Shown here: positions 3,001 through 64,000 of the stretch, piece by piece | Layout: every line of letters begins with the position of its first letter | Numbering within the stretch: the first letter of the stretch is position 1 | Assembly: GCA_947561395.2 (NCBI GenBank) | Contig: OX387194.1 | Coordinates: 17,408,048-17,472,047 of the forward strand | DNA length: 64,000 nt | Source: Buxus sempervirens | Lineage: Eukaryota; Streptophyta; Magnoliopsida; Buxales; Buxaceae | Reading direction: 5' to 3' | Translations under genes and position numbers: made by a program | The notes under the pieces: generated by a model | What the model was told of the DNA's origin: nothing | The model's input: the letters and a program-made list of their open reading frames with translations, nothing else | Databases searched by the model: none

Positions 3001-3209
3001 TGGTTCTAGGCCTGCATTTGTTGGGCCTGCACTTGTTGGGCCTGTACTGACAGTATGTTCTCTAGCATTCGGGCTAGTCCTGCCACTTGTTCTTGGAGTA
3101 GGACAACATCTGGATGAGGAGCATCCACTTCATCTTCAATGGGATTCATGGCTCGAGCTCTTGATCTGGTTACAGGAGCTATGATTGCGAGTGTATTAGT
3201 ACCTGGCAA
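1..3209 (-). pseudogene. gag-protease region of element 1 (fossil)
   Basis: On the minus strand the order is a gag N-terminal region (about 2950-3200), the gag core with YDGTGCPMSHLKLYC near 2640-2700, the capsid-like part to about 2350, a C/H-rich knuckle near 1690-1830, a long linker rich in K/E and in repeats of PPLVVN, an aspartic protease with IDNGSALNV near 640-680, and a G-patch-like stretch with GKGLGVNLQGR near 100-200. This order is usual for Tat/Ogre polyproteins. The region is broken in several places and its continuation lies outside the window. Confidence 0.8.
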
Positions 3210-5633: not shown

Positions 5634-5651
5634 TCCCCAGCAGAGTCGCCA
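5634..5651 (-). other. Primer-binding site of element 1
   Basis: The minus strand reads TGGCGACTCTGCTGGGGA two bases inside the LTR end. This matches the type of site reported for Ogre elements (tRNA-Arg primed) and is identical to the site at 52114. Confidence 0.8.
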
Positions 5652-9293: not shown

Positions 9294-10676
9294 ATAATTC
9301 TGATTTTGTATATCATACTATATTAATTAACCTTTGAATCCTATTTTCTCATGCATTTGAATGGTATTTGGCTTATTGTTTTATTCTTATGAATTACATT
9401 TTGGTATATGAGAAACTTCTGTTCTGGATGCTTCATTAGATTGTTATTTTAGAAAGGGAAACCAGAAAAGACTTGTGGCGTTTTTTAGATATTAATAATA
9501 ACAGTGCTACTTTGGAAGCTTTCCCATCTCTGGTTGATATTTTTGCATGGAAGGATTATGGTTGCCTAGCACAATGAGGCAATTATGGACAGACAAGATT
9601 GTTCCTTTGTGATGGTTTTAAATCCCACAATTGGCATCTGATACGAATACATATCAATGGTCCGTGCCAACCAATAGCTGTTGGTCCAGCCTGATCTTGA
9701 AATATAAGATCTGAAAAAAGCATAAAAATATTGAAAATTCCAAAAATATTAAAACATTGAACTGGAAACATTATTTGCAAAAAATGAAAGCTAGATTTTA
9801 CCATCATTGTGTTGCGCTGAGTTGTGAATGCTGATAAGATTATTATTTCTGGTGCTCAGAACTACACAACACAATGTTGCAATTTAACAAATGTCAAACA
9901 CAATATCATGGAAATATTGAAGATAAAGAGTTCCATATCTCTAAATCTTTATCAATGTATGTATATTTGAACTATAAGTATCAATAAATTGCTTGAATTA
10001 ATTTTACAAATTGGCCTGAATTCTTTGGATCCATTGCATATCCATTTGTAGAAGTATACCTGATTTCTTTTGATTCATGTTACAGATCCCTCAAATATGA
10101 AGTCATACTTTTGAACTAAGCTATTAATTTGAAGAAAAACTCAAATAGGATGTTAACAAATTTTGCTTCAGCATAAATTTTTTTGATCAATATATCATGT
10201 ATCGACATATACGTAGAGCATCCACTAGATTATTTGGACATCAAATAAAGCCACATTTTTTTTAACTTTATGTTTCTGAAGAGCTAAGATATTTTCTTTT
10301 TCTTTCTTTAAATTTATGTTTCCAAATATTTGACATTTTTTTTCTTTTGGGAAATTCATGTTTTAGTTGATTGTGCACTGATTTTGATTTAGATATACTC
10401 TCAATGTGTGTCATTTTTTTTTTCTCAATATTTGCTTTCTAGGATGTTGAATTTTGTAATTTCTAAGAGCCTTTTTGTTTGGGACGTAAACTTGTTACCT
10501 CTTTCTTGTTTTAGGCACATCACAAAGGCATAGTTGCTAGCAAGAAAAAGAAAAAGGCGAAATTGCAGCGTGCCATTTGTAGAATGAAAGACAGCGGCGT
10601 GGTCTTTCAGAAAATATCAGTGCTAATTACTACTCACCTCTTAATCACCTGAAAGATGCAAAGGTTGTACGGTAAT
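9294..10676 (+). repeat. Extra copy of SDA1 intron 4 plus exon 5, upstream of the gene
   Basis: This 1.38-kb stretch matches 12324-13708 almost base for base, at an offset of 3030-3032 bp. By eye the differences are a few percent. It starts about 40 bp inside SDA1 intron 4 and ends a few bases past the exon 5 donor. The exon copy (about 10516-10663) keeps the lysine-rich stretch but has substitutions and small length changes that alter its frame, so it is a relic exon. It is in the same orientation as SDA1 and about 500 bp upstream of its start codon. Confidence 0.9.
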
Positions 10677-23100: not shown

Positions 23101-26100
23101 GTAACCAAGATTTAGAGGAAGCTGGGCATATGCACATTAGTTAAGTATTTTCTAAAACAAAATCTCATGGCAAAAAAAGTAATGAGATGTTTGGATACAT
23201 AGCGTAATTCCATTACCTGTACAATGCATTTACTTGATGCAAATTGAGATATAAAAAGTATGGGAAACGAAGTGAAAATTTGAAAATCCATAATGCGTGA
23301 GAGCATATGGATATGCTTGTGTGCCTACATAAATAAAATTATTTACACACAAATGGTCGTGTACTATTAGAAAGAAAAAATAGTTCTATCAACCAATGGG
23401 GATTATTTATAAACTTATAATGCATAATCTAACATATTTCTCAATGGCCTCCATCTACCCAAATTTAATGCATAAGCAAGAAAAAAAATTTAATGCATAA
23501 GTTTTTTATGCCAAACCTCTTGCGACATCAGAAAATAAACAAAGAAGACCAAAGAGTGATTGGAAAGAATCTTAACACGTTATATGGGGGAACTTTATGA
23601 GATATAGTTGCATGGACAATGGATCGGAATAAATTCTGTACCAGTTGGTGGTACATGCATTAATTAATAATGCATGGTTTTATTTGGTTGAAAAGAATTA
23701 AAATACCCAAAGCTTTATAGCATGGCTAAGCTTTGGGGTATGTAATAGTATGAGAACTTCCGTTTTTCATGATTATGTAATATTTGTATATGGGCATATT
23801 TTAGGAAAGTGTAAATTAATATATGAATTGTATTGGTACTCTATACAATTATGAGTGGCTTGATGATCAGATTCTATATGAGAAAAATAATGAACTTCTA
23901 TCAGGGTTAATATCAAAAATATATAATATTGCTATTAAGAAGCTGAAAATTATGCACAATATCTGTATGCAAAATACGAATGGCATAACAACACAGAATT
24001 TAACGTGTAAGAAATAAACATGAAATAATGAATGTGCAATATCGACTTTTCCAGAAATGAGAAGTGTCAATATAGCTCATAAGAAAAGTGACAATGATAT
24101 TAGTAATGCTAATTTCAGTATTTTTTTTTTTTTTTTCCAATATTCAAGTGTTATTAGCAATTGATCAATATTTGCATACGCATGTAACATACAATTCCGA
24201 ATCCGAATTTTGTGGAACATGAAACCTTGAATATATTTCTTCCATGGAAGCATGCTTAAAAAGATATTTAAATATTTATTGATTTTAAAGGATTCCATAG
24301 TCCAAAGAGTGATTGGAAAGAATCTTAACACGTTATATGGGGGAACTTTATGAGATATAGTTGCATGGACAATGGATCGGAATAAATTCTGTACCAGTTG
24401 GTGGTACATGCATTAATTAATAATGCATGGTTTTATTTGGTTGAAAAGAATTAAAATACCCAAAGCTTTATAGCATGGCTAAGCTTTGGGGTATGTAATA
24501 GTATGAGAACTTCCGTTTTTCATGATTATGTAATATTTGTATATGGGCATATTTTAGGAAAGTGTAAATTAATATATGAATTGTATTGGTACTCTATACA
24601 ATTATGAGTGGCTTGATGATCAGATTCTATATGAGAAAAATAATGAACTTCTATCAGGGTTAATATCAAAAATATATAATATTGCTATTAAGAAGCTGAA
24701 AATTATGCACAATATCTGTATGCAAAATACGAATGGCATAACAACACAGAATTTAACGTGTAAGAAATAAACATGAAATAATGAATGTGCAATATCGACT
24801 TTTCCAGAAATGAGAAGTGTCAATATAGCTCATAAGAAAAGTGACAATGATATTAGTAATGCTAATTTCAGTATTTTTTTTTTTTTCCAATATTCAAGTG
24901 TTATTAGCAATTGATCAATATTTGCATACGCATGTAACATACAATTCCGAATCCGAATTTTGTGGAACATGAAACCTTGAATATATTTCTTCCATGGAAG
25001 CATGCTTAAAAAGATATTTAAATATTTATTGATTTTAAAGGATTCCATAGTTCTCTACTCGATGTTGTTATTAAGTTTTGTATGCTAAACCTCTTGCGAC
25101 ATCAGAAAATAAACAAAGAAGACCAAAGAGTGATTGGAAAGAATATGAGCACCTGGTAAATGAAAGAGTGGTGGAAACACCGTGCTTAAATAATTTCAGG
25201 TGTGTAATCCATTTTGACCACCACACCTAGACCCAAAAATTTAAGTTTATAAACCAATTTGTGCAGTGTTTTCGACAGATTTAAAAAGGGTGGTGATGGT
25301 AGAGTTGGGGGAGATCATTGAATGGCGATTGGTATGACGAAGTGAGGTAAATGGACTATGCGACCCAGACCCATGTGTAGAATTATAAAAAGTTTAAAAA
25401 CCAGAAATTCTCCCTGTACTATGTCAAACGAATGTGGCAGATATTTTAACATATGATATCTTAGGTATTTCAACAAACGGTAGGTAAACATATAATAAGG
25501 TAATCACGTTCCACACCATTTTCATTCATCCAGTCCAACCAAGTTCTCAATAAATTTCCACACCAATTTCATTCATTATAATAGTTAATGTTCAAATTTG
25601 TTGCATTTGAAGTAAACGAAACAAAACGAAATGAGGGGTAGTCTACACCCAACCGAGATGTCTGGCCACTACTTGTTTAGTGAGAAAAAAAATTATCATA
25701 TTAGATCTCATAATTCCTCTCTCAATGTCTCCCGAGAAACAATCATTAATGTTTTGAACTCTCATAATAAAACCTCGCTCTAACATAAAATTCACAATTA
25801 AATTTACATCTGCACTACCATGAGTTTTCAAGTCAAAACGAAATTAGGAAACTGGACTCTGCAATAAAATGTAAAAGCAATAAAAACTGGACTCTGCAAT
25901 AAAAATTTGATTGCACTACCATGAGTTATCAAGTCAATATGGGGGACCTCCACATAAAAACTATAATTACTTATATACTGGCTGTATAAATGGCCCAAAC
26001 CAATCAAGGTCTGAATAGAATACCCATCACACATCTCATCCCTAACTGCTCCACTTTTTGATAGGCTCCAACTATTTAGTATGGTTGTATGCATGTAGTA

Positions 26101-32262: not shown

Positions 32263-32379
32263 CCAAACTTGCTTCGACTCGCTTTGTTTCCTCATCCCAC
32301 ATCGGTTAGTGAAGGGTTGAGTTATGTGCTTATATGTGGATTGGGCAAACCTAACTAATGGACTAGTCTTTTTGAGTAA

Positions 32380-32815
32380 TTAGGCGCATCTGCATCACGC
32401 TTGGACACGAAAGAATGCAACACAGGCAACAAAACATCAACCCAAAGGAAGCAACACTCGTACTTGTTCCTGAACTCGAAGTCCTCGTGGTCCACCAGCG
32501 CCTCAATGTACGAATTTGAACCTCCGACGATGATCGGAATACGGCCTCCACCGACGATGGACTCGACGGCGCTCGAAGCGAGGCGGCGGAAATCGATCGC
32601 AGTGAAGTCTGTGTCGGGGTCTCTGAATCCTAACAGATGGTGTGGAACCCCACACTGCTCCTCCTCGGTTACCTTGTTGGTGACCATGTTAAGCCCTTTG
32701 TATACTTGCATTTTATCAGAATTCACGATTTCCGCCGGGAATCTGGTTGCGAGGTCGATGGAGACCTTAGATTTTCCGGTTCCGGTTGCCCCCATTATAA
32801 ACACAACCTTGGCCA
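32380..32815 (-). pseudogene. IPT: Adenylate isopentenyltransferase pseudogene, N-terminal part
   Basis: The minus frame carries KVVFIMGATGTGKSKVSIDL (P-loop), RFPAEIVNSDKMQVYKGL, VTNKVTEEEQCGVPHHLLG, IPIIVGGSNSYIEALVD and CCFLWVDVLLPVLHSFVSKR, close to IPT3/IPT5-type enzymes. These transfer the dimethylallyl group to ATP/ADP, the first step of cytokinin synthesis, usually in plastids. Here the N-terminus upstream of the P-loop is replaced by sequence running into the inverted C-terminal copy, and the reading breaks off after FVSKRDADAP. The locus is therefore non-functional as an enzyme gene. The reading frame that remains is well kept, so decay is fairly recent. Confidence 0.85.
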
Positions 32816-32851
32816 AGGTTGCATGTCTGACATGCATGCAGAAAAATAAAA

Positions 32852-33090
32852 TAAAAAATTTTCGATCCAAAGGCGGACTACAAGCACGGAATCTGGCGTG
32901 CAATCGGGGTTCTGGAGATGGACCGGTACTTGTGAGTAGAGGCGACGGTGGACGAAGAGACCCGAGTGGGTCTGCTCGAGGAAGCCATTAGCGAGATCAA
33001 AGCCAACACTTGCAAGCTTGCTTGTTGCCAGTTGCAGAAGATTCATCGGCTTCGATCCATGTGGGGTTCGAATTTGCAGTGCCTTGATTC
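32852..33090 (+). pseudogene. IPT: Inverted copy of the IPT C-terminal part
   Basis: The plus strand repeats the IPT C-terminal coding segment of 31990-32250 (minus) at about 92% identity by eye over about 230 bp. Nearly all differences are transitions. Together the two copies form an inverted repeat flanking the IPT N-terminal part, with a spacer of about 610 bp. An in-frame TGA is present after DRYL, so it is not coding. Confidence 0.85.
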
Positions 33091-40378: not shown

Positions 40379-43290
40379 ATCAACTCAAAACAGATTAAAA
40401 CTTGCTACATTAGCTGGTGTTAGGTTTTATATTTTAGTTTGGCTTAATTCAGTGTCAAAGAGTAAGTGTTCAAGGTGTTCAAAGTGTTTGGGATAGGTTA
40501 TAAGAGTCCTGGTTCAAACGGCGTTAAAGTCGGAGTTAAATTGGTTAATTTATGATAAATGTTAGATTGCCGTTTGACGCAACGTTCGAACGCTCAGTGT
40601 ATACAGTCAAACCCGAGAGTTGCGTTCGCCAACGAGAGACTTGCCGTTCGACTGTTCATGATATCTTAACTCAAAGTGAGGCAGTCGCTCGAACGAGAAT
40701 AGGTGAAGTAGATTTACTTATTGAACGTTAGAGCCGTGTTCGATGAACGTTCGAACGTTCAATACGGAAAATCAGTTATAAAATTCCGATATTTTCTGAT
40801 TTGTTTCCTATTCCTTCTCTACTTCTTTTTAATCTATATAAAGATTGTTTAGATGTTCCTTTAGGGTTACTTAAGACATTTTTGGAGCCCTAGATCTTTG
40901 TGTGTTAAAAAGAGACTTCTCCCTTGTGTTTAAAAGAAAAAGAAATATGAAAAGAACTCTGGGATGAGCTGTAAACCCCAGAAATCTTGAGTTCAAAAAG
41001 AAATTAAAAAGAGTACAACCATGGAATAAGCTGTAAACCCCAGATATTCTAAGGAACACTACTCCTTGTGCAAAAAGAATTGTCAGAAACAGGGGAGAAC
41101 ATTTCAAACACAGAATTTTTAAGGTCTCAAAATTCATGAAGGATGTTCTTTTTAATTCATAGAGAGACTTGAGTAATAATGTGATTTCTTGATAAATGGC
41201 CAAATCCTCCTCATCAAGTTCCAATTTAGGCAAACTTATTTGTATTTGGATTTGCACTTGCATGCAAGCATGCTTGGTGATTTAATTGCATTATTGTGTA
41301 GTTATTTGGGATTAGTGCTTTTAGTTTTGTAAAAACTTGAATTTTGGGTGAAAAAGTTCTCAACAATATGAAAATTTTGAGTTTTTATGAAATATTGCTT
41401 GTGGCATGTTTCATCATGTTTTTTGATTGTTTTTACATGTTTTTGAGTTGGTTTTGTTGGAAGATTTGTCGTTTGGGTTGAAATCTGGAAAATTTTCTGA
41501 TTTCCATATCTTCCAGTTTTGTTCTGTTTTTTTTTCTTGGGTGTGTTTCGCCTAAGTTGGCTCGAGTGTGTTTCTTTCTTAAAGTTTTTCCAGCTTTCTT
41601 CTCTATTCTAGCACATTTGAGTTCATGCTTGTGCTGAGCTATTGCCGAGCTTGAGAGTGGGGGTTTTGTCTTCTTCAAGACTTTGTCAAATTTTGAGGGG
41701 AAGTAAGTATTTTTGGCTTCACTATTTCCTTTTGTCTATTTCTGTGACAAAAAGGGGGAGTAGGTATTTCTGAGGGGGAGCTTAATGTTGGTTATACTTT
41801 ATGAGGATTGTGATATTGATGCATGAATGTGAATTGCTTATTGTTATTTTTTTTCCTTATGCGTTTCACAAGGTATTTGTTTTCTTTGAGTTGTTTTGTT
41901 ACAGGTTACAGGTTTCAAATTCAAGCATGGTTTGTCTAGGTTAGTGTAGATAGGTTTTGTTTGTGTTTGTAAAATCCAAGACATTGCTTGGTGGTTCACA
42001 ATGTCAAGAATTCTCAGTTTATTTTATTGTGTATAGGTTTTGTCACTGAATAGCCAAAGGGGGAGTTTGTTAGGTTTTATATTTTAGTTTGGCTTAATTC
42101 AGTGTCAAAGAGTAAGTGTTCAAGGTGTTCAAAGTGTTTGAGATATGTTATAAGAGTCCTGGTTCAAAAGGTGTCGAAGTCGGAGTTAAATTGGTTAAGT
42201 TATGATGAACGTTAGATTGCCATTTGACGCAACGTTCAAACGCTCATTGCATACAGTCAAACCTGAGAGTTGCGTTCGCCAACGAGAGACTTGCCGTTCA
42301 ACCGTTCATGATATCTTAAATCAAAGTGAGGCAGTCGTTTGAACAAGAAGAGGTGAAGTAGATTTACTTATTGAATGTTAGAGCCGTGTTCGATGAACGT
42401 TCGAACGTTCAATACGGAAAATCAGTTATAAAATTCCGATATTTTCTGATTTGTTTCCTATTCCTTCTCTACTTCTTTCTAACCTATATAAGGATTGTTT
42501 AGACGTTCCTTTAGGGTTACTTAAGACGTTTTTGGAGCCCTAGATCTTTGTGTGTGAGGAAGAGAAATTTCTCTCCTTCATTTCCTTTCTTTGAGCTATT
42601 AAATCTTCTATTCTTCCTTGTTCAAAGCCTTGGAGTTCCGAGTTGGGGAGATTGATCGTGGCAGTTCTTACGGATACCAGGCGAGTTCGTTTGGGTGATC
42701 GTGTGAGAAGATCTTCAGAGTTCTGAGGTGTTGCTGTGGAGCAAATTTGAGGAGTTCCTTAGATACTTTCAAGTCTGTGAGTTGCAAAGTCTAGCATAGG
42801 GATGTTGAGTCGTCTGAACTACAGGTTGTAAGCCTTCTTTTCATATTGGATCTTTTAGGTGGCCCTTGCATAGCCTGGAGGGTTTTTCTCTAGTGAGAGT
42901 TCTCATAGAGTTTTCCCTTTGTTACCAAATTGCTTGTCTTGTTTATTTCTTTACATGCTTTATTTGTTTTTGCAATTTGGGTGGCTTGATAGTTAGTAAT
43001 TATTTTCTGGAATTATTTTGAGGATTTGTTCCTGCCTATTAATTGAGGACTTGTCTTTAATTAATAGAATATTTTTTATTCCACTGTGCTGCACCTATTC
43101 TCCCCCTTCTAGTTGTTGTTAGAGTCAAAACCCTGTTTTTCAACTAGAATTTTGTACCATTTTCAGTCTGGCTAGTTGATTCGTGCAACTAGCTAACACA
43201 ATTAAATTCGAAACCCAATTCATTAGCCCAGTAATATGACTTGACATTTACGCTGATATGGGAAGCTCTAAATTGATTTCAAGTTAAACA
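40379..43290. mobile_element. MITE family B, copy 2, split by an LTR element
   Basis: The left terminus (40379-40417) and right terminus (43199-43290) resemble the ends of family B copy 1, including internal TTTAGCT and AGCCCAGTAAT-type segments. The LTR element at 40418-43198 lies between them, so the LTR element landed in a pre-existing MITE. Confidence 0.6.
40418..43198 (+). mobile_element. Non-autonomous Copia-like LTR element (fossil)
   Basis: Direct repeats start TGTTAGGTTTTATATTTTAG at 40418 and 42068. The right copy runs to CTAACA at 43198 (about 1.13 kb) and is preceded by the polypurine tract AAAGGGGGAG. The left copy is partial, alike only to about 40903. The 1.2-kb interior carries GGGGGAG motifs typical of the 3' part of plant Copia elements but no recognisable polyprotein. 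The LTR contains the palindrome AACGTTCGAACGTT. The shared part of the LTRs differs by a few percent, so the element is fairly recent. It is broken and cannot encode its own proteins. Confidence 0.72.
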
Positions 43291-46148: not shown

Positions 46149-48441
46149 ATGGCTCAACCACCCCTGGCGAAGTTGTTGTTTTGCTACTTGCATATAGGTG
46201 GAGAGATAGTTATAGAGCAAGATAAGTCTGTATCATATTAGGGGGTCATTTAGATGGTTTGAATATAAGTGGTAATACACAGTACGATGAATTTGTACGT
46301 GATGTCTGTAGTAAATTTGGGATATCTTCAGTGGGTTTGTCTATGAAGTACTCTCTTACGTACGAGAAGAATGCTTTACTTCCACTTACTGATCAAGCGG
46401 GGTTATTTAACGTTATCACCCACAACGAACGTTCTGCGAATGTGTACTTATTTGACGGTGAAGGGCAATTGCAAAGCGTTCAGTCTTCTAGAAGGTGATT
46501 ATCACATATTTGACTTACAAAGTCATAGTGTTTGTTATCATACTAGTGTTTTAATACTTAAACTATTTTATTTTCTAGGACGACTAATTTAATAAGTAGT
46601 GAACCGTTGGTTGAACCAATTGTGGTCACATTTGTTGATCGGGAGCCTATAGTTGTTGGGAGTTGTATTGAACACAATAGGGCACCACTTGTGTCTAGCA
46701 TGTGGCAATCACAAATAATTGGTGATGGTCAGGTTTTTAGGAGTGGTGATGAATTCAGGCAAGCTGTCTACAAGCATGCCATTGGCAATAGATTCCGTTA
46801 TGTGTTCAAGAAAAATAGTCGAGAATATATCTTTACCAGATGTTCTGTTGAAGATTGTCCTTGGAAAGTTAACGTAGGTTGTGTGAAACATACGGACTGC
46901 ATGATGGTGCACAAGTTTGTGAATACACACAAACACTCGGCACAAGATGAAGTCTCAGTAAAGCCTATTGTGCGATTGAAGTGGATAGCTGGTGTTATTG
47001 AGAAAACAGTAAGAGAGACACTGAATTACTTGCCATGACAAATTTCCAAGGACTTTCATAATGATCATGCGATGAATTTAACATACCAGCAATGTTGGAG
47101 AAGCAAGGAGAAAGTGAAGAGGAAGATGGATGGAAACGTGGAGGACACGTACAAACTTGTTCCATGGATGTGTCAACGCTTGATGGAGTCCAATCCAGGG
47201 ACGGTGGCTTGGTGTACATCGAGTGATAAGGGGAAGTTTAAGCAGTTGTTCATTGCATACTCTTGTTCGTTGAGAGGGTTTGCAGTGGGATGTAGACCTT
47301 TACTTTTCATTGACGGGACCCACCTTAGCGGACCATATCAAGGAACGTTATTGTCTCCTACAGCTCTCGATGCTAATGATGGTATGTACCCGATAGCTTA
47401 TGCAATTGTGACTGCTGAGAATAACGAGGATTGACTATGGTTCCTCGAACAGGTCAAGTATGCAATTCGAGGTCGAGCCGATGTTGTGATTGTGAGTGAT
47501 AGGCATCAGAGTATTATCAATGCTGTGGGTAGCACATTTGGGTTTCAAAATCATGCTCATTGCTATCGGCATGTGAAAGAAAATTTCAGCAAATTCATTA
47601 ATCAATTTCATCTAGGCAGAGCGAAGAAGGTGGCTTTGGGATTATTGGATGATATAGCTAATGCTCAGCTTCCAGAGGATTTTGATATGGCGATGGATGT
47701 ATTGCAATCATATCCACCTGAAATGTTTGGTTGGGTGGAGCAAAATGGTCCTCAACATTGGGCAAATTCCTTATTTCCTAAGAAACGTTGGGATAAGCTA
47801 TATTCAAATGTAGCCGAGTCGTTTAATGCTTGGATGTTGGAGGAGAGGAAATATCCTATCTTAAGATTCATTGATGCACATAGGGTTAAGTTAACTAAGA
47901 TGTTGGTAAGGAAGAAGAACGAGATCAGCACATGGGAGATACCTATCTGTGGTCGCATTGTAAAGAAAATTGAAAAGAATACAGCACGAGGAGTGGGGTT
48001 GTCTGTAATGCAATGTGGTGAACATGAATATGAAGTTAGGCCATGTGATAGAAACATTATTGTGGATATCTTGAGACGTGAGTGTACATGCAAGCAATGG
48101 CAAATGTCCGGCATACCTTGTGTGCTGTTTTGCAGAAGAAATCACTAAATTTATATGAGTATGTGGAGCAGTGTTATCACAAGTGTACTCAAGAGCTGAT
48201 ATATGCAGAGTTGATGCGTAGTGTACCAACACATGACATACCTAATGTTGTGGATATTGATGCGATATCTCTTGCTGACTCATTTGAAACACCAACAAGC
48301 ATACTGCCCCCTAAAACAAAGTGACGACCTGGGCGGCCTCGGCAGAAGCGCATAGAGTCTCAATTCCAAAACAAGCGGCCGGTCCACTGTTCCCGTTGCA
48401 ATGAGGCAGGACACAACTAAGCTACATGCAGGGCCTCAATC
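46149..48441 (+). pseudogene. Mutator-like (MULE) transposase, decayed
   Basis: In order: a PB1-like domain (46230-46490, GLNISGNTQYDEFVRDVCSK); an intron-like gap; a MuDR N-terminal domain (46730-46940, VFRSGDEFRQAVYKHAIGN and CPWKVN); the MULE transposase core (47240-47900) with FIDGTHLSGPYQG, VIVSDRHQSIINAV, HCYRHVKENF and NVAESFNAWM supplying the DDE set; a SWIM zinc finger (48080-48130, CTCKQWQMSGIPCV); and a CCHC knuckle (48390-48430, CSRCNEAGHN). The protein would bind the element ends and cut and paste it. In-frame TGA codons at 47036, 47432 and 48322 and frame changes near 46237 and 48125 show decay. It converges on a Ulp1-type fragment at 48880-49260. Confidence 0.85.
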
Positions 48442-49397: not shown

Positions 49398-52111
49398 TGT
49401 AGACACCCCAAAATTGCACGATTTTTGATAAATCTTGAAGGAGAGAAATATTTTATTGGAATTTTCAATTCTTTGCATTGGGTTTGAGATACTTAACCCA
49501 TTTGAATCCAAAACCATAAAGGAAAAGACCCGAATTCAATCTTTTGTGCAAAGTCAACTTTTTCCGGTTGAATTTTGTTGACTTTTGACCCCAGAAAATG
49601 AAATATTTTTTAAAACCAGATTTCAAGATAATTTTTCCCGGTAATCAGGTTTTTAGCCATGTTATTGCATAAAAGAATTTTTTGAGATTTTAAATCTTGA
49701 CGAATACCTTGGTTTTAACATGTTGAATCTTTTTACCGGACCTGAAAAATCGGAATTTTGCCTAAAACTGGAAAGTTGACTTTTTATTCACTTGGAATTT
49801 GGGTCTGGAACTAATTTTAATGGATTCAAATTGGGGGGGGGGGGGTGTTTGCTTATTTACATGTAATATCTTAAGTAAATGGAGATTAAAAAATACGAGG
49901 ACATTTACTTAAACGATATTACATGTAAATAAGTATTGCCTGTGTTAAAATTCGGATAAAAGCTTCTTTTTTTTGTATCCGACAGATAATGTCCGATACA
50001 AAGAAAATTGCTTGTATCCGACCTGACATGTCGGATACAAGCTTTTTGCTCAAAATTAGGGTTTTCCGAGAGTTTTCACTTTTTACCATCATATCCTTCA
50101 TTAAAGGAGTGGAAATCTCGGAAATAGCCTTAGGGTTAAGGTTGGTGGGCTCTAGACATTATGTTGTGTCTACCATCATGCAAAACCCTAACCCTAGCCT
50201 TTGCCTATAAATAGGAGGCTCCTCCTTAAGCAAATAGCCATTAACTCTTGTAAAGAACTTTTGCCAAGAAGTTGGAGATCAAAGAGCTCCGAGTGAAGAG
50301 GGGAACCGTTGCGGAACTGCTTCCAGAACCCAGGTAAGCCTCAAACCTCTCTTTAATTTTCTGTTTTTATATTCTAGATCTAGATCTCTTATTCTACTTT
50401 TCTGTAGAATAAGGCCTATGATGTGTGTGTGAAAACCCTTCCCCTACTCAAAGTATCTCAAGACTCCCCCTAGCCGTAAAAGGTGAAGGCGGGATCTAGG
50501 TGAAACGAGACTGGGGATTGATCCTAGTTCTAGGACCTATTTGAATAAGCCTTTTGAATCTGTGAAGACCGTTCCATATTCAAAGTACCCTAAGATTATC
50601 TTGAAGAACCGTGTTTAACGGGGAGAGAGAACTACGGAAAACGATAATGGAACGGAACCCTATTTTGATTGATATGAATGCATGCTATCTTTGCTATGTT
50701 GTTGGAATAATTTTTACACTTACACACACATAGCACGTGCTTTTGGCGGGATAGGCTCATATTTCGGATTTATTGCATTTGTTGTGATAAATCTGAAATG
50801 AATAGCCCCAAGAAATTCTGGGATGTTTTTAAATGATTTTCAAAGGATTTTGATCTATCTTGCACGGATCACACACCTCTTATCACTGTTTTGAGTTATT
50901 TTTATTCAAAAATGGCTTAACTTGACAGCAACTGTACCCCAACTTCGGACACTCATAACTTCATGGTCCGGATGAATTTTGGAGTGATTCCAGAACCATG
51001 GGAAAGGTGAGGCTGTTTAGTTTATTCCTACCAAATTTCATTAATTTCTATCAAACGGATATTTGACACCTCTCTGTCGAAGTTGATAGGTCAGTTCAGG
51101 TCCGAATACGGAACCTGTCACTTCGACTGAGTGCCATGTGTTCGTTTTACGTCCGATTCCAGTGATTCTTGTTTCTGAGTTTTCCTTTGGAAGTCTAGTT
51201 TCAAATTCAGTTGATTTCATCATTTTTTGACTCCATTTGTGTCGTGGCTAACAGATTTACTCAGAACTGCTCAACAGCACTTTTCTGGGTAAATCTGTGA
51301 TCTTCGGGGCCTGTTCGGGAGACCACCCAAGGCACATCCGAATGAATTTTTGTATGAGGCCAGTTTCATTTGAAAGATGGCCATACAGACTTCACTCACA
51401 CCAAATTTCATGAATTTATATGTAGCCGATTGTTCTAAATAATTCTCCAAACTTGCCCACTTGCCACTTTTTACTACCTCCAACAGCACTTTTAAAAGAA
51501 GCATAACCCTTAGGATTTCAACCGGATTTAATTGAAATTTTGCATGAGTCTCTTATTTACCATAATCTTTCAAATGAATTTGGTTTGATTCAATTTAAAT
51601 TGGATTTGAATGATTTCAAGACAAATGGTTCTTGCTTTTACCGAATTTTTTAGATTTAACTCAACTTGGTTTTGTGCAACTTTTGCTTTGATTTCTATCT
51701 TTTGGTGATATTCCAGAAGTGATATTGACATAAAAGAGGATCTGGAATTCATTTGGATTTTCATGTGAAGATATCATACATTTGTCCTTTTTCAAGGGTT
51801 TTAATGATTTTTAGCAAGCTTTCTTATTTTCTAGCATGAATAACACTTGGAAACCACCTTGTGTGGATGAATGGGGGTGCCTAACACCTTCCCCCATTCA
51901 TAATATAATCCCCTTACCCATCTCTGGTTTGGATTTTCAAGTAGAGTTATTTTACTCTAGAATTTGCTTTTTAGCTCATTTTGTTATTTTTGAATCTTTT
52001 GGTGTCCATTCACACCTCAAAAATCTGAATGGTGGCGACTCTCCAATATTTACGTTGAGCCCGTGTGTTGACGGAGGGGGAATCACCCCGGTGATTTTTC
52101 CATGTCTCACA
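49398..52111 (+). repeat. 5' LTR of element 2
   Basis: This LTR is about 2.71 kb, from TGTAGACACCCC to TCTCACA. The TATA box CTATAAATAG is at 50205-50214. A palindrome pair lies upstream at 49974-50043 and a 12-14 base G-run near 49835. It is repeated from 61568 on. Confidence 0.93.
49974..50043 (+). repeat. TATCCGACA/TGTCGGATA palindromes in 5' LTR (two)
   Basis: Two hairpin-forming units with stems GTATCC...GGATAC-like, about 160 bp upstream of the TATA box. The 3' LTR carries four such units at the same place. Confidence 0.85.
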
Positions 52112-52113
52112 AC

Positions 52114-52131
52114 TGGCGACTCTGCTGGGGA
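52114..52131 (+). other. Primer-binding site of element 2
   Basis: TGGCGACTCTGCTGGGGA begins two bases after the LTR end and is identical to the site of element 1. It matches the tRNA-Arg type reported for Ogre elements. Confidence 0.82.
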
Positions 52132-54002
52132 CTTGTGGATTTAAGCCATTTTGTGTATTTGTTCATGCCTTTTTCTTTATTTTTGAATGCTTGCTATTTT
52201 GCCTACTTTCCTTGTGTATATTGAATCTCAAATCTGATTTGTATGATTAGAAAACTCACATGGATAAAAGCATGGATATGTTGCTTGATTGTGTCTATAA
52301 ATGTGTTTAAAGGAAAGCCCATCTTGTAATAGGACCTTGCTATATTTTGTGAGAGCATATGTTATTTTGGGTTTGAATGTCATGAGGTGAACGAAAAAAT
52401 TTGTTTTCTGAAATCTGGAAATTTGGTGTAAATTTTGGGGTATTCAACCATGATTCCCATGAACAATGCTTTCGTGAGCTTAAATGTTTTTTTATGGCAT
52501 GCCTTGAATTTGGGGTATGGGATGACATGATTTGAGCATGAAAACAATGCACAGAAATTTTGAAATGCTTGGTGGGAATTTTTGGGATTTTCAAGCATAT
52601 TTTCCTTAGCTAAAAGCTTCTTGTACCATATTGTTGGGTGTTGTATTTTTAGGCTTGGTTTTGGGCATAAAACAATGTCATTTGAGCACAAAAAAATGAA
52701 GAATACAAAACCTGGAAATTCAGTAGCCATTTTGGGGGCTTTCAAGAATGTTTTCCCCAACAAAAACACCTCTTGAACAATGCATCTAGTTGCTGTATTT
52801 ATAGGCTTACCTTTGGTCATGGACAAGGCACTTTGAGCATGAAAAAGAGAACTTTAAGACCCATAATTCAGTAGATGTTTGGAGGAGTTTTCAAGCATGT
52901 TTTCTCTATTCAAATGCTCCTTGTACAAAATGATTAGGTGCTGTATTTTTAGGCCTTTAATTTTGGGGTATAAATGACACACTTTGAGCATGAAAAAGAG
53001 CATGAAATCTGAAATTTAGGGAATGCTTTTGGGTTTCAAGCATGTTTGGCATGGTTTATTTGTTGTTGGTACAAAATGATAACATGCTTATATGCTACTT
53101 TTTGGGTATGTGATAATTGTGTGCATATTGAGTAGCTTTTACTACCTTTCTTGCTTGTGTTTTTTGCTTTCAATATAATGTCATATGCCTTGGCTTGAAA
53201 TTCTATGCATGGCTACGAAAAGAGTGGCAAGGGGTTGGGACGTTGTGAATGTACCTCAAATTCAAATTGCACTTGAGCACTATAAACATTTTGCACAGCC
53301 TACCCATTACCTATAGGAAGTTGAACCTGAATGTGGGTAGCTTGGCGCACCGAGGTCGATTACTTCGGAAAGCGAAAGTGAAAACATTCACCTTAGAATT
53401 TGAGTCAATGATGTGATGACAATGGGATCTGTGATTCGATTCCGGGCATCACTAGACTTGAGTTCTAAGTTGTCAGTTAAGCCAAAACCCAAAAACCATA
53501 CGCTTGAAGGTGGAGAAACATGTTTTCAGCTAAAAGTACACAATTGCGTTTGGGGAATTGGGTGTAAATGTGGGAAGGCCGTTTGCATGTTCACAGGCAA
53601 AGGTATAATATGAATACCATATTGAAGGTAACATAAGGTGGCAAGGTAAATCCATGTATTCTTTTATTTTCATGTAAATTAAAAACCATGATGTTCATAT
53701 GCTTGGGATGAAATTTTTCCCATAAATGTTTGAAGCTTAAGATTGGTGTAACCCATAGGATGAGTTTCCAACTCAATAAAGGTCATCCTACCCAAAGTCC
53801 AAGCAAGAGGCAACCAAGTGTACAAAGTCCAACAAATTGGTGTGTAACTTTGGAGGGTACAAGTACCCTCATGAATTTGTGAATTTTAGCAAGAATGATA
53901 TCAAAGCCCAATTTGGGGCAAGATTTAAAGGCCAAGTCAAGGTGAACATCAAGTGGGAATGAAAATAACATAATCTGGTGAAAAAATGAGTCAAAAAGGG
54001 CC
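52132..54002 (+). other. Leader of element 2
   Basis: This is non-coding leader. Three or four degenerate copies of a segment of about 150 bp (TTTGAGCATGAAAA, TGTATTTTTAGGC, TTTTCAAGCATGTTT) occur between 52500 and 53080. Stretches such as ATGCATGGCTACGAAAAGAG (53204) match the leader of element 1. Confidence 0.6.
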
Positions 54003-54155
54003 GTTTCGGCATTAACCGACAACTTAGGTCGGTTAAACAGAGTTTTATTCATATCCGATATACTTCGTCGGTTACAAAGGCTTATGCGTGTATCCGATCA
54101 TTTGTATCGGATACAATAAGACATAGCCTTAGCCGACATATTATGTCGGATACAT
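54003..54155 (+). repeat. Palindrome cluster in the leader of element 2
   Basis: Four hairpin-forming units: TTAACCGAC...GTCGGTTAA, TATCCGATA...CGTCGGTTA, GTATCCGAT...ATCGGATAC and TAGCCGACA...TGTCGGATA. They share the TATCCGACA/TGTCGGATA core with the LTR cluster of the same element, and not with element 1. Confidence 0.82.
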
Positions 54156-54429
54156 TCAAAAAATGTATAAATTGGTTTTTCAGCCCAAATTTTTAGAATA
54201 AAATGCCTAAAACACTGTGGATAATCCTTAGGCACCCCAAAGAGAATGTAAAAATGTTTTCAAAAAAAAAAAAACAAACAAAAACAAAAAAATTTCTTTT
54301 AGGATTTAACCTAATTTTGAAAATCAAAGAGGGAACCAATGTGTCATATTTTTTGATACCAATTCAATTCAAACATGTTTTTATCAAGCTCTTGAACTTG
54401 AAAACTGAAAAATTCAGAAGAAAAAAAAA

Positions 54430-55170
54430 CCTTTGGTTGGATATTTTTTCCATTCAAATCAAACATTTGTGGGACACTTGGAAGCCCTAGAATATTCCAA
54501 GAAACTTTTGGTTGGTTATTTTTATCAATCAAATCAAAAAATTTGTGGAACACTTGGAAGCTTTAGAATATTCCAAGAAACCTTTGGTTGGTTATTTTTA
54601 TCAATCAAATCAAAACATTTGTGGGACACTTGGAGGCCCTAGAATATTCCAAGAAACCTTTGGTTGGTTATTTTTATCAATCAAATCAAAACATTTGTGG
54701 GACACTTGGAAGCCCTAGAATATTCCAAGAAACCTTTGGCCCTAGAATATTCCAAGAGGCCTTTGGTTGGTTATTTTTATCAATCAAATCAAAACATTTG
54801 TGGGACATTTGGAAGCCCCAAAATGTTCAAAAAAAAAAAAACCTTTGTTTGGTCACGAGAACTAATCAAATCAAAAATTTATGGGACACTTGGAACCCCC
54901 AGAATATTCCAAGAAACCATTGTTTGGTTACGAGAACCAATCAAATAAAAAATTTTGTGGGACATTTGGAAGCCCCAGAATATTCCAAAAAAAAAAAAAC
55001 CTTTGTTTGGTCACGAGAACCAATCAAATAAAAAATTTGTGGGACATTTGGAAGCACCAGAATATTCCAAAAAAAAAAAAAACTTTTGTTTGGTCATGAG
55101 AACCAATCAACTCAAAAATTTGTGGGACCTTTGGAAGCCCTAGAATATTTCATAAAACTTTTGGTTGGTA
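54430..55170 (+). repeat. Hairpin array, type A units
   Basis: There are about nine tandem units of about 76 bp, each with GGGACACTTGGAAGCC followed by CTAGAATATTCCAAG. The arms CTTGGAA and TTCCAAG pair around a loop GCCCTAGAATA. The rest of each unit is TTGGTT and ATCAATCAAATCAAA. The frames that run through the array follow from the repeat period. Confidence 0.9.
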
Positions 55171-55184
55171 TTTTTCGTACCAAT

Positions 55185-56145
55185 CAATTGAAACCTTTTG
55201 GGCCATCTATAAGCCTCTGAATTATAGGCGCATCCTCTTTGGGCCATCTAAAAGCCTCTGAATTTTAGACACATATCTCTGGGCCGTCTAAAAGCCTTTG
55301 AATTTTAGACACAATCTTTTTGGGCCATTTGAAAGCCTCTGAATTTCAAACATCAACGTTTTTGGGCGGTCTAAAAGCCTTTGAATTTTAGACACAATCT
55401 TTTTAGGCCATTTGAAAGCCTTTGAATTTCAAACATCAATCTCTTTGGGCCGTCTATAAGCCTTTGAATTATAGACACATATCCTTTGGGCCGTCTAAAA
55501 GCCTTTGAATTTTAGACACAATCTTTTTGGGCCATTTGAAAGCCTCTGAATTTCAAACATCAATCTCTTTGGGCCGTCTATAAGCCTTTGAATTATAGAA
55601 ACATATCCTTTGGGCCGTCTAAAAGCCTCTAAATTTTAGACACAATCTTTTTGGGCCATTTGAAAGCCTCTGAATTTCAAACATCAATCTCTTTGGGCCG
55701 TCTATAAGCCTTTGAATTATAGAAACATATCCTTTGGGCCGTCTAAAAGCCTCTGAATTTTAGACACAACCTTTTTGGGCCTTCTAAAAGCCTCTGAATT
55801 TTAGACAAATCATTTCTTTGGGCCGTCTATAAGCCTCTGAATTATAGACATATATCCTTTGGGCCATCTAAAAGCCTCTGAATTTTAGACAAATCATTTC
55901 CTTGGGCCGTCTAAAAGCCTCTGAATTTTAGACACAACTTTTTTTGGGCCGTCTAAAAGCCTTTGAATTTTAGACACAACCTTTTTGGGCCATCTAAAAG
56001 CTCTGAATTTTAGACAAATCATTTCCTTGGGCCGTCTAAAAGCCTCTGAATTTTAGACACAACTTTTTTTGGGCCGTCTATAAGCCTCTGAATTATAGAC
56101 ACGTATCCTTTGGGCCGTCTAAAAGCCTCTGAATTTTAGACATTT
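55185..56145 (+). repeat. Hairpin array, type B units
   Basis: There are about 23 tandem units of 35-45 bp, each GGGCC followed by a hairpin with loop GCCTCTGAA or GCCTTTGAA. Three stem versions alternate: CTAAAA/TTTTAG, CTATAA/TTATAG and TTGAAA/TTTCAA. In almost every unit both arms change together, so pairing is kept. It is the counterpart of the array at 3361-4140. Confidence 0.93.
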
Positions 56146-56355
56146 CTCATTCTTTGGGACCTTTGGAAGCCCTAAAATATTCCAACAACTCTTTGGTTGG
56201 TCTTTTTCGTATCAATCATTTTCATATCTTGTGGGACATGTTGGAAGCCCTAAAATATTTCAACAATTCTTTTAGCTCAAGAAAAAAAACCAAAAAAAAA
56301 AAAAAAAAATCAAAACTCGTGTTCACCTAACTCACTTATCTACATTTATAGGTGT

Positions 56356-58482
56356 GTGACTAGGATTAAATTGGAGCTGACATGTTTCTTTTTCCTTCTC
56401 CAGGTACACATACTTGCAACCATTGCTCCCATAACCAGATCAAAAGCCTGCACCATGAATCCTGAAGAGAATCAAGCCACCGTCCCCGTTCAAGATTTTG
56501 CTCAACTGCAAGAGCAAGTGGCCGAACTGGCCAAAATGCTAGGAGACTTACTGGCAGCTTAGGCCCAACAAGCCCAAGCCCAAAACCATGCCTCTACTTC
56601 CCATCAAGCACTGCCACCTCAAACCTACGTCCCACCTCCAGCTCAACCCATACCTGAACCTATTTCTGAACCAGTCCCTGAACCTATTCTGATCAGGGAA
56701 AATGCCGTGGAATTTGAGAAAGAGACGGAAAAGGAAAGAGCCAGGGAGGAAATGGAAAGGAAACTGCTACACAAGATAGAGATGATCCAAGAAGAACTCA
56801 AGGAGGTGAAGGGGGGAAACAGTTATGGAGGTACCACCTTTGATGACTTATGCATATACCTGGATGTATGCCTACCGGCAAAATTCAAATGCCCGGATTT
56901 TGACAAATATGATGGCACGGGCTGCCCAATGAGCCACTTGAAACTATACTGCGGGGCTTTGTGCCAGTTTGGTCGGGATGATGGCATACTAATCCAACTC
57001 TTCCAGAGGAGTTTGACAGGATCGGCTCTGAGGTGGTTTGCCACAGTTGATCATGGGAAGATTAGAGGATGGAAGGACCTGGCAGACGCCTTCTTGGACT
57101 AATACAAATTTAACTCGGAGATCGTGCCAGACTGGTATGACATGATGAGGATGAGCAAGGGAAAGGAAGAATCTATAAGGCAATATGCCAAGAGGTGGAG
57201 AGAGTTTGCCTCCCAAGTCAGGCCGCCTATGTTGGAGCCTGAGATGATCTCGACGTTTGTAAGTATGCTGGGGCAGCCCTTCTACAATCACCTGGTGGGT
57301 CAGATTACCACCAATTTTGTAGCCTTGGTACAAGTGGCCGACCGGATTGAGGATGGGATCAAATCTGGCAAGATAATTGATTATTCGACCATGATCAGTC
57401 AACAAGACTCCACTCATAACAAGGGAAATGGTAATGGAAAGAAAAAATCTGAGGAAAGGAGAGAAGCAGAAGTGAATATGGTGCAGCTTCCCAAGGGACC
57501 CGTTCAAATCAATGCCCATCCAGTTCCTTTGCTGCCTATCCAAATTAATGTCCCTTCTGCACAGCCTGTGAAGGAGGAAACAGAAGTAAGGAAGAGAAGG
57601 GAGTTTTCAAAACTGCCTATGAGACCATCTGAACTTTTGCCTACCTTACTTCAAAAGGGTTACATGACTTTGAGGTTGCCAAATCCTCATGCAAGCAAGG
57701 GGAAGGGTTATGATCCATCTGGAATCTGTGAGTATCATATGAGCACTCCAGGGTATACCACTGATCGTTGCTTAGCCCTAAAGCATGCAATTCAGGATTT
57801 GCTGGATAATAACTCTTTATCATTCAATTCAGTCACACCCACTCCTTCTCCCACCAGCAACAATGGGGCAAGCAGATCAAATGCAGTAGGGGCAATTTTC
57901 TTTGGAGAAAGAAGATTTGACCCTTCTCAACTTATTGCTCCTATAGGGTCAACTGTTTGGGTTTATTTTGAAAGGGAAGAAGAACAAGAAAATATGATGG
58001 GTGGGGAAGGAAAAAAGAATGAAGAAGAAAAAGGAAAAGAAGAGCCAAAAGAAGAAGAAATGGTGCAGATGACCATGCCTACACTGCATGAGCAATCGTT
58101 GCAAGATGGTGTAAAGATTGTTCTAGGGCAGAATATTCTACAAGAAGCCAGTACAGAAAATAGGGCAGAGTCGATTGAGAAAGAAGGATGGCAGAGAAAG
58201 AATGGGGGTGTTTTCGAAGAAAAGAAAGAGGCAAAGGTTGAATTCATTTTGCCACACATTGATTGGACAGTCATCCAAGTTCCAGATCAAGTAACGTCAC
58301 TTCTTCCAAGGGTTGAGCATGATGTCCTAAATATGAAGGCAATGGCTGATCAAAGAAAGGAATTTTTGCCTCAACCAGAAGAAGATGAAAATTTTTGCAA
58401 AAAGGGAAAAAAATCAACTTTTGTCTTTGAGAACAGGGGCAATTCTCGAATTCCCATGTTCTCTGAAAAGAAACCCCCATAA
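56356..58482 (+). pseudogene. gag of element 2 (fossil)
   Basis: The region follows the hairpin array. It encodes an N-terminal part with PITRSKACTMNPEENQ, a Glu/Lys-rich helix (about 56700-56800), the Tat/Ogre gag core with FDDLCIYLDV, KYDGTGCPMSHLKLYCGAL, FQRSLTGSALRWFATVD and MSKGKEESIRQYAKRWREFA, a C/H knuckle-like CEYHMSTPGYTTDRCLALKH near 57725, and an acidic linker. It supplies the particle shell in working relatives. It is broken, with about two breaks, and no pol follows. Confidence 0.85.
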
Positions 58483-61567: not shown

Positions 61568-64000
61568 TGTAGACACCCCAAAATTGCACGATTTTTGATA
61601 AATCTTGAAGGAGAGAAATATTTTATTGGAATTTTCAATTCTTTGCATTGGGTTTGAGAGACTTAACCCATTTGAATCCAAAACCATAAAGGAAAAGGCC
61701 CGAATTCAATCTTTTGTGCAAAGTCAACTTTTTCCGGTTGAATTTTGTTGACTTTTGACCCTAGAAAATGAAATATTTTTTAAAGCCAGATTTCAAGATA
61801 AATTTTCCCGGTAATCAGGTTTTTAGCCATGTTATTGCATAAAAGAATTTTTTGAGATTTTAAATCTTGACGAATACCTTGGTTTTATCATGTTGAATCT
61901 TTTTACCGGACCTGAAAAATCGGAATTTTGCCTAGAACTGGAAAGTTGACTTTTTATTCACTTGGAATTTGGGTCTGGAACTATTTTAATGGATTCAAAT
62001 GGGGGGGGGGGGTGTTTGCTTATTTACATGTAATATCTTAAGTAAATGGAGATTAAAAAATACGAGGACATTTACTTAAACGATATTACATGTAAATAAG
62101 TATTGCCTGTGTTAAAATTCGGATAAAAGCTTCTTTTTTTGTATCCGACAGAGAATGTCGGATACAAAACATCTTTATTGTATCTGACAAATAATGTCGG
62201 ATACAAAGGATCTCTATTGTATCCAACAGATAATGTCAGATACAAAGAAAATTGCTTGTATCCGACCTGACATGTCGGATACAAGCTTTTTGCTCAAAAT
62301 GTGGGTTTTCCGAGTGTTTTCACTTTTTACCATCATATCCTTCATTAAAGGACTGGAAATCTCGGAAATAGCCTTAGGATTAAGGTTGGTGGGCTCTAGA
62401 CATTATGTTGTGTCTACCATCATGCAAAACCCTAACCCTAGCCTTTGCCTATAAATAGGAGGCTCCTCCTTAAGCAAATGGCCATTAACTTTTGCCAAGA
62501 ACTTTTGCTAAGAAGTTGGAGATCAAAGAGCTCCGAGTGAAGAGGGGAACCGCTGCGGAACTGCTTCCAGAACCCAGGTAAGCCTCAAACCTCTCTTTAA
62601 TTTTCTGTTTTTATATTCTAGATCTAGATCTCTTCTTCTACCTTTCTGTAGAATAAGGCTTATGATGTGTGTGTGAAAACCCTTTCCCTACTCAAAGTAT
62701 CTTAAGACTCCTCCTAGCCGTAAAATGTGAAAGCGGGATCTAGGTGAAACGAGACTGGGGATTAATCCTAGTTCTAGGACCTATTTGAATAAGCCTTTTG
62801 AATCTGTGAAGACTGTTCCATATTCAAAGTACCCCAAGATTATCTTGAAGAACCGTGTTTAACGGGGAGAGAGAACTAAGGGAAACGATAATGGAACGGA
62901 ACCCTAGGTTGTTTTTAGAACCCTATTTATTTGATATGAATGCATGGTATCTTTGCTATGTTGTTGGAATGATTTTTACACTTACACACATATAGCACGT
63001 GCTTTTGGCGGGATAGGCTCATATTTCGGATTTATTGCATTTGTTGTGATAAATCTGAAATGAATAGCCCCAAGAAATTCTGGGATGTTTTTAAATGATT
63101 TTCAAAGGATTTTGATCTATCTTGCACGGATCACACACTTCTTATCACTGTTTTGAGTTATTTTTATTCAAAAATGGCTTAACTTGACAGCAACTGTACC
63201 CCAACTTCGGACACTCATAACTTCATGGTCCGGATGAATTTTGGAGTGATTCCAGAACCATGGGAAAGGTGAGGCTGTGTATTTTATTCCTACCAAATTT
63301 CATTAATTTCTATCAAACGGATATTTGACACCTCTCTGTCGAAGTTGATAGGTCAGTTCAGGTCCGAATACGGAACCTGTCACTTCGACTGAGTGCCATG
63401 TGTTCGTTTTAAGTCCGATTCCAGTGATTCTTGTTTCTGAGTTTTTCTTTGGAAGTCTAGTTTCAAATTCAGTTGATTTCATAATTTTTTGACTCCATTT
63501 GTGTCGTGGCTAACAGATTTACTCAGAACTGCTCAACAGCACTTTTCTGGGTAAATCTGTGATCTTCGGGGCCTGTTCGGGAGACCACCCAAGGCACATC
63601 CGAATGAATTTTTGTATGAGGCCAGTTTCATTTGAAATATGGCCATACAGACTTCACTCACACCAAATTTCATGAATTTATATGGAGCCGATTGTTCTAA
63701 ATAATTCTCCAAACTTGCCCACTTGCCACTTTTTACTACCTCCAACAGCACTTTTAAAAGAAGCATAACCCTTAGGATTTCAACCGGATTTAATTGAAAT
63801 TTTGCATGAGTCTCTTATTTACCATAATCTTTCAAATGAATTTGGTTTGATTCAATTTAAATTGGATTTGAATGATTTCAAGACAAATGGTTCTTGCTTT
63901 TACCGAATTTTTAGATTTAACTCAACTTGGTTTTGTGCAACTTTTGCTTTTATTTCTATCTTTTGGTGATATTCCAGAAGTGATATTGACATAAAAGAGG
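61568..64000 (+). repeat. 3' LTR of element 2 (cut by window edge)
   Basis: It matches the 5' LTR from its first base. The TATA box is at 62449-62458. Apart from single differences, it has a larger palindrome cluster and an extra short segment near 62907-62925. About 280 bp of the LTR should lie beyond the window. Confidence 0.93.
62140..62286 (+). repeat. TATCCGACA/TGTCGGATA palindromes in 3' LTR (four)
   Basis: Four consecutive hairpin-forming units at the place where the 5' LTR has two. The extra units are slightly degenerate (TATCTGACA, TATCCAACA). Confidence 0.85.

Follow-up and report, generated by a model that had tools for sequence, protein, structure and literature searches.

Tandem arrays of covarying hairpins upstream of gag in two related long terminal repeat retrotransposons of Buxus sempervirens

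Two related elements and their hairpin units

A stretch of 64,000 nucleotides from Buxus sempervirens (contig OX387194.1, positions 17,408,048 to 17,472,047; hereafter the window) holds two related long terminal repeat (LTR) retrotransposons, element A on the forward strand and element B on the reverse strand. Each carries a tandem array of short hairpins between its primer binding site (PBS) and gag. A first-pass annotation had reported tandem hairpins in element A whose arms change in pairs, and we confirm this observation; the interpretation that came with it is, overall, partly supported. The second occurrence of the unit, in element B, and a predicted intron spanning the leader extend what was first seen.

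In element A we count 34 hairpin units between 54471 and 56265: 11 of class I and 23 of class II (Table 1). The roughly 30 tandem hairpins first described before gag correspond to 32 units within 54430-56145, nine of class I and 23 of class II, and two more class I units carry the array past its annotated end at 56145 to 56265. All four pairs of stem arms named at that time are present in the array, and the loop then written as AGCC-Y-TGAAT is corrected to GCCTYTGAA. A class I unit consists of the lead GGGAC, the stem YTTGGAA/TTCCAAR and an 11-nt loop, most commonly GCCCYAGAATA; the first nine such units of element A are mostly 76-83 bp apart. A class II unit of element A has the lead GGGCC and the 9-nt loop GCCTYTGAA (8 nt in one unit), and a three-unit block of 124 bp has partly spread its three stem versions. 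An inverted-repeat scan found exact Watson-Crick stems of at least 7 bp in 28 of the 34 units (22/23 class II, 6/11 class I). A truncated copy lacking the 5' arm (~54738-54756) was excluded from all counts. The class I spacers may form a second hairpin, of the TTTGGTTGGT/ATCAATCAAA type and with G.U pairs: the best inverted repeat was 5-11 bp long in all 10 spacers examined and contained two G.U pairs in nine of them, as counted on the natural spacers alone.

The array of element B comprises 17 class II units and one class I unit. Its class II stem is TCTGAAA/TTTCAGA in 14 units and has one base changed in the other three, and the same scan found exact stems of at least 7 bp in 14 of the 17. 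The GGGC lead, the 7-bp stem and the GCCTYTGAA loop are common to the class II units of both elements. A and B have different spacers and a different unit spacing but the same lead, loop and stem length, from which it appears that the unit was re-amplified in at least one of them.

Several features identify the two elements as LTR retrotransposons: the LTR pair of A, the PBS of both, a purine-rich tract that precedes the 3' LTR of A (found by eye) and the Retrotrans_gag domain of B. They differ by about 24-30% in their alignable parts. We assign them to Ty3/gypsy by general resemblance, the window holding no reverse transcriptase; the tentative Tat/Ogre label likewise combines the first-pass label with general resemblance, as the pol of B lies outside the window. 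The right end of the 5' LTR of A was placed from the PBS, since its 3' LTR is cut by the window. Pfam gave no match to the gag pieces of A, though the region aligns with the gag of B. Downstream, between 58483 and 61560, the longest stop-to-stop frame has 92 aa. Among 55 listed frames of at least 35 aa, the 10 that were tested (68-92 aa) contained no pol domain and gave three weak matches below cut-off. Because no pol domain was found there, element A is probably non-autonomous, as far as the scanned frames indicate.

Two side observations concern the leader and gag. The leader block shared by the elements lies outside any long frame, reaches 87% identity per 150-bp step and, at about 75% overall, is as conserved as the gag region (69-80% per step). 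Each gag copy has two in-frame stops in its N-terminal part.

Table 1. Features of elements A and B in the window, with predicted splice sites
Feature	Element	Position	Strand	Basis or remark
5' LTR (TG...CA)	A	~49398-52111	+	self-BLAST, 96% identity; sequence, PBS adjacency
TATA box	A	50206-50214	+	TATAAATAG
Predicted 5' splice site CAG/GTAAGC	A	50334-50335	+	consensus scan
PBS	A	52114-52131	+	identical to PBS of element B
Leader block	A	53184-53920	+	~75% identical to element B 4530-5252; self-BLAST, A/B comparison
CCGA/TCGG palindrome cluster	A	54012-54149	+	in leader; same type as in U3 of A
Class I units (9)	A	54471-55155	+
Class II units (23), ~41-bp period	A	55200-56141	+	stems TCTAAAA/TCTATAA/TTTGAAA with complementary 3' arms
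Two further class I units	A	56156-56265	+	adjoining gag
Predicted 3' splice site CAG/GTAC	A	56402-56403	+	CTGAC branch-like site, T-rich tract
gag	A	56455-58482	+	similarity to gag of element B; two in-frame stops
3' LTR	A	starts 61568	+	continues beyond window
5' LTR with TATA box	B	5654-7455	-	ends inferred from TG...CA and PBS
Predicted donor CAG/GTAAGT	B	6942	-	in LTR
PBS	B	5634-5651	-	same 18 nt as element A
Hairpin array (17 class II, one class I)	B	3367-4128	-	class I unit adjoining gag
Predicted 3' splice site	B	3203-3204	-	consensus scan
gag region, Retrotrans_gag and G-patch domains	B	3-3149	-	cut by window edge

Pairing, covariation and folding of the units

Are the stem arms paired beyond what the descent of the units would leave? 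We aligned all 52 units (34 from A, 18 from B) by hand and tested them jointly with our own script, not R-scape, against four tree-aware nulls in which substitutions were replayed on a tree (1000 replicates each). Standard pairs fill 358 of the 364 stem cells (98.4%), and four of the seven stem positions have changed on both sides. Summed covariation G was 229, compared with null means of 35, 50, 52 and 54, and no replicate of any null reached it (0/1000 each). The fraction of stem cells paired was likewise reached in 0/1000 replicates of each null. Among 496 column pairs scored with average-product correction, ranks 1, 2, 3 and 5 go to the four stem pairs that vary. By G and by the fraction paired, the paired columns thus covary significantly when the phylogeny of the units is allowed for.

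A first MAFFT alignment of the 52 units misplaced the class II 3' arms relative to class I, and class-wise alignments were used for the pair counts. In the class II set (40 rows, 22 distinct), 98.7% of cells are paired, as against 90.1% in shuffles (0/500), and sliding the partner lowers this to 53.2% or less. The corresponding values for class I (12 rows, 11 distinct) are 94.8%, 90.1% (1/500) and at most 63.6%. Compensated changes comprise C-G/T-A and G-C at pair 1, C-G/T-A at pair 2, G-C/A-T at pair 4, and both A-T/T-A and A-T/G-C at pair 5. Solitary changes left six unpaired cells, and G.U pairs occur in units A54623, A55124, A55200, A56233 and B3443. By hand count the main stems hold five G.U cells and two A.C cells, their antisense counterpart, too few to settle the strand.

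The pair just outside the stem forms in 52% of the 23 class II units of A, in 6% of the 17 class II units of B and in 0% of class I units (10 of the 11 in A examined; 56233 excluded). Since this next outward pair is mostly unpaired, stem length is very nearly 7 bp in class I and class II alike. Further out in B, pairs 3-5 all score as paired through GGG facing T-rich sequence (G.U), and we gave them no weight.

The first-pass annotation held that such paired changes are what selection on pairing leaves. In favour of this, the tree-aware nulls do not reach the observed covariation and the same unit recurs in element B; on the other side, the independent events are few. It had also named an outcome that would count against it, namely that the stem versions were only two or three duplicated blocks. 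This describes in part the class II units of A, with their three versions, but does not extend across classes or elements.

We also compared predicted folds with shuffled sequences. The whole class II array of A folds with a z of -3.98 in the sense direction and +2.32 in the antisense direction (20 shuffles). With spans limited to 45 nt and 200 shuffles each, the sense and antisense values are -4.66 and -2.47 for class I of A and -3.10 and -1.09 for class II. For three control stretches of A the values were -1.85, +0.17 and +0.50 sense, and -1.78, -0.54 and +1.97 antisense. In the local fold, 18 of the 23 class II units of A form the hairpin with at least five of its seven pairs.

Lead and loop can pair as well. 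At least 3 bp of lead:loop pairing are kept in 50 of the 52 units, as GGGC/GCCU in class II (also AGGC/GCCT and GGGC/GCTC) and as GGG/CCC in class I. Shuffling the loop of one example unit per class allowed 3 bp in 35% of trials for class II and in 13% for class I; for 4 bp the figures were 10% and 2%. Together with the stem, this pairing would make an H-type pseudoknot, with a first loop of 1-2 nt in class II, a structure with which the units are compatible but which they do not prove. The pseudoknot suggested in the first-pass annotation is therefore possible given this complementarity, although a match so nearly invariant gives little covariation evidence.

Searches for relatives covered the window, viral contigs and genome contigs. 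Rfam gave no gathering-score match in the window; two sub-threshold matches in 52000-56500 were taken as chance, one of which, rivX at 55048-55197 (E 0.14), touches the array. A class II covariance model run over the window returned 81 rows in all: it found its own 40 units and no third array, and its weaker matches (E 0.039 to 5) were four class I units, antisense copies and a few scattered hits taken as chance. In viral contigs, one unit pattern matched nowhere and a second matched five contigs, once in each; a gag search there yielded 254 pattern matches, none of them confirmed. The scan of genome contigs matched 65 prokaryotic contigs once each, where we estimate that about 60 would be expected by chance, and no array.

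A predicted leader intron and the possible role of the array

We scanned each element from TATA box to gag with simple consensus rules of our own for plant introns (branch site, pyrimidine, AG). A single acceptor passed in each, one in the 6.3 kb of A and one in the 3.9 kb of B. These predicted acceptors lie 51 nt (A) and 53 nt (B) upstream of the gag ATG, where 0/500 and 1/500 random sequences place one. In A the first donor with at least eight of nine consensus bases is found 128 nt past the start of the TATA box, and in B 105 nt past it; 6/500 and 12/500 random sequences, respectively, have a donor 60-180 nt beyond the TATA box. The motif CCAGGTAAGYC occurs three times in the 64 kb, in the two LTRs of A and the LTR of B (chance 0.03). 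If transcription is assumed to start 30 nt past the start of the TATA box, the predicted first exons measure 98 nt (A) and 75 nt (B), and neither they nor the 51 and 53 nt of exon 2 hold an ATG. The predicted introns, of 6070 bp (A) and 3740 bp (B), hold 112 and 81 ATGs. Because the predicted exons are free of ATG, the gag ATG would be the first in the predicted spliced RNA of both elements. The array of A itself holds four ATGs in 1851 bp, with none in class II.

Element A has further donors with eight of nine consensus bases at 51007 and 53646. Intron donors near 53628 or 53646 were considered first, and the LTR donor at 50334 was preferred because no ATG precedes gag in the resulting predicted mRNA; the inner donors and the one at 51007 are less favoured alternatives.

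If these predictions hold, the hairpin array probably lies within a leader intron and would be retained in unspliced genomic RNA alone. Our reading, to which we give a probability of about 40%, is that the array works in cis as a structured RNA element of the retrotransposon genome, that Gag would be translated from a spliced mRNA and that the hairpins mark the unspliced RNA. The transcript would start in the LTR and be spliced from the LTR donor to the acceptor just upstream of gag, so that the gag mRNA would lose PBS, leader and array, all of which the unspliced RNA would retain. The array would be well placed to mark the genome because it and the PBS are predicted to be kept only in unspliced RNA. 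The repeated hairpins would most likely do so as many low-affinity Gag binding sites, in packaging, or possibly by promoting retention or export of the unspliced RNA. The G-rich lead would either pair with the loop, giving the H-type pseudoknot, or serve as a contact surface. We rank packaging first because the unit is repeated, which would provide avidity, and because the layout resembles retroviral psi downstream of the donor. Packaging or dimerisation, one of the roles proposed in the first-pass annotation, would thus be favoured by the predicted intron placement. Two further observations count for this reading: element A appears to lack pol yet retains LTR, PBS, leader, array and gag, and the two elements agree in lead and loop where their spacers diverge.

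A wider and more doubtful proposal is that a class of plant Ty3/gypsy elements splices the whole leader out of its gag mRNA and uses some 20-35 pseudoknot-capable hairpins as a high-avidity tag for packaging or export, in which stems turn over while lead, loop and pairing are kept. In our judgement, little is settled about the selection of genomic RNA for packaging by plant LTR retrotransposons, or about gag translation downstream of multi-kilobase leaders. A covarying hairpin array restricted to the predicted unspliced RNA would offer a specific candidate for such a signal; for the leader intron, the prediction comes down to one splice junction per element.

Several results weigh against a selected, structured RNA. 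Compensated changes number only about six independent cases by hand count. Pairs with changes on both sides were at least as numerous in 24, 16, 117 and 396 of 1000 replicates of the four tree-aware nulls, and this count was not significant on a tree built without the stem columns. In the class-wise shuffles, that count was reached in 43/500 (class II) and 384/500 (class I) trials; further pair types, reached in 327/500 and 437/500, were not significant either. Folding is also uneven. The whole array of B has a sense z of +0.83 (20 shuffles), its local fold is no better than shuffles (-1.11 sense, -1.16 antisense) and just four of its 17 units form the hairpin there; thus the arrays of A fold better than shuffles and that of B does not. 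Eight units folded singly gave weak hairpins (z -2.0 to +0.6), and three of the eight had another best fold, two with lead:loop pairing and the third with a different pairing. The splice sites, for their part, come from simple consensus rules and are predicted only, and the in-frame stops in both gag copies mean that these copies may be dead.

The main rival, which we consider unlikely but take seriously, is a neutral array, in which a palindrome-prone unit was duplicated in tandem and mutation itself, through hairpin-templated correction or template switching during reverse transcription, kept the arms complementary. The 124-bp period and the near-identical units show recent duplication, and the scarcity of independent changes and the weak thermodynamic support in B fit this explanation. 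Moreover, passages of PMC7004042 treat the variable tandem repeats of Tat elements as probable products of replication, though those repeats lie downstream of gag-pol. However, pairing breaks off abruptly after 7 bp whichever class or element is considered, for which templated correction offers no evident reason; lead and loop, which the hairpin leaves unpaired, are also conserved between A and B; and G.U pairs are present.

Control of splicing is less probable still. Here the hairpins would shape the 3.7-6 kb leader intron, hide cryptic sites or draw the two splice sites closer to each other, and would thereby determine how much gag mRNA is made relative to genomic RNA. In both elements the array does stop some 140-165 nt short of the predicted acceptor, and class II contains neither CAG nor ATG, a weak point given that 13 of the 64 trinucleotides are absent. 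The unit holds nothing specific to splicing, however.

We think it very improbable that the array acts at the DNA level, as palindromic binding sites or cruciforms in transcription or chromatin. Such a role has been proposed for Sirevirus motifs, and passages of PMC2829016 suggest regulatory roles for the palindromic repeats of Sirevirus LTRs; in the present elements, another palindrome type occupies both U3 and leader. Yet in the hairpin units the arms vary while lead and loop stay, the opposite of what a DNA-binding palindrome would lead one to expect. The unit is also asymmetric and sense-oriented in both elements, and relative to shuffles the sense strand of A folds better than the antisense, B showing no difference (z -1.11 and -1.16). 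Least likely of all is translation entry past the long leader, by internal initiation or shunt, a role listed in the first-pass annotation: the unspliced RNA of A carries over 100 ATGs ahead of gag, the predicted intron alone holding 112, and the array few, but gag would have the first ATG of the predicted spliced leader in both elements, and an array that is probably removed with a predicted intron would hardly serve the gag mRNA.

Other features of the window and comparison with known systems

Palindromes of a separate kind occur in both elements, in U3 (A, 49972-50042 and 62137-62286; B, 7352-7251) and in the leader just upstream of the hairpin array (A, 54012-54149; B, 4403-4300). Each element has its own type in both places, GTATCCGAC..GTCGGATAC in A and ACGGGC..GCCCGT in B, as if U3 and leader were changing in concert. 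U3 and leader share 27 9-mers in A, against a random mean of 14.4 and within the random range (maximum 30 of 500), and 11 in B, against a mean of 2.25 (maximum 11). The two LTRs of A carry unequal numbers of palindromes, with additional TATCCGAC/GTCGGATA-like units in the 3' LTR (62119-62290) that are missing from the 5' LTR (49950-50045). Imperfect repeats of about 120 bp, seen by eye in the leader of A (52380-53100), align poorly with B. Elsewhere, the window holds a Helitron replication helicase-like frame (Helitron_like_N, PIF1; 17165-20254, reverse strand), part of an isopentenyl (tRNA) transferase-like gene (32355-32987, reverse strand) and a weak match to a MULE transposase, under the Pfam cut-off (47435-48148, forward strand). 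Direct repeats of 94-99% identity (9295-10676 and 12325-13708; 40418-40915 and 42068-42565; 21943-25051) may be the LTR pairs of short elements and, in addition, a tandem triplication that happened recently.

How does the array compare with what has been described? The literature covered, which contained few subscription papers and was consulted largely through listings and selected passages, yielded no covarying hairpin array in a plant retrotransposon leader and no proven intron upstream of gag. According to passages of PMC6317226, the largest plant LTR retrotransposons outside the chromoviruses have expanded non-coding regions with tandem repeats. Ogre and Retand are like the present elements in having tandem arrays inside Tat-clade Ty3/gypsy elements, but passages of PMC7004042 and PMC11963269 place these arrays downstream of gag-pol; the word "hairpin" was not found in the text of PMC11963269, nor were "palindrom" and "secondary structure" in that of PMC7004042. 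In Diaspora, too, LTR and gag lie far apart; donors are predicted within its LTR and acceptors around where gag begins, as portions of PMC1142308 describe; "tandem repeat" was not found in the text of that paper.

The repeated motifs of Sireviruses are palindromic too, and they occur in many copies in the non-coding parts of a plant LTR retrotransposon. Passages of PMC2829016 present them as symmetric palindromes, 12 of 13 with a CGG-CCG core, located in the LTR and before env. The units described here differ in their AT-rich, changing stems, long conserved loop, lead and position before gag. They are not symmetric CGG-CCG palindromes of the LTR or of the region before env, and the separate palindromes of U3 and leader resemble the Sirevirus motifs more.

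In retroviral leaders, psi consists of a few distinct hairpins between PBS and gag, downstream of the donor, and so is present only in unspliced RNA. The arrays of A and B likewise lie between PBS and gag and, by prediction, would lie downstream of a donor and be confined to unspliced RNA. In retroviruses, Gag binds psi in the 5' leader of the unspliced RNA, as passages of PMC12421996 state. Psi differs from the present arrays in having few distinct hairpins, as against 34 (A) and 18 (B) similar ones, and here binding by Gag is putative and gag itself would be translated from spliced RNA. A parallel for that last point is BARE, which belongs to Ty1/copia. According to passages of PMC3735527, its translated and packaged RNAs are distinct, a spliced Gag RNA being among them, and a similar division between the RNA that is translated into Gag and the RNA that is packaged is what we predict for elements A and B.
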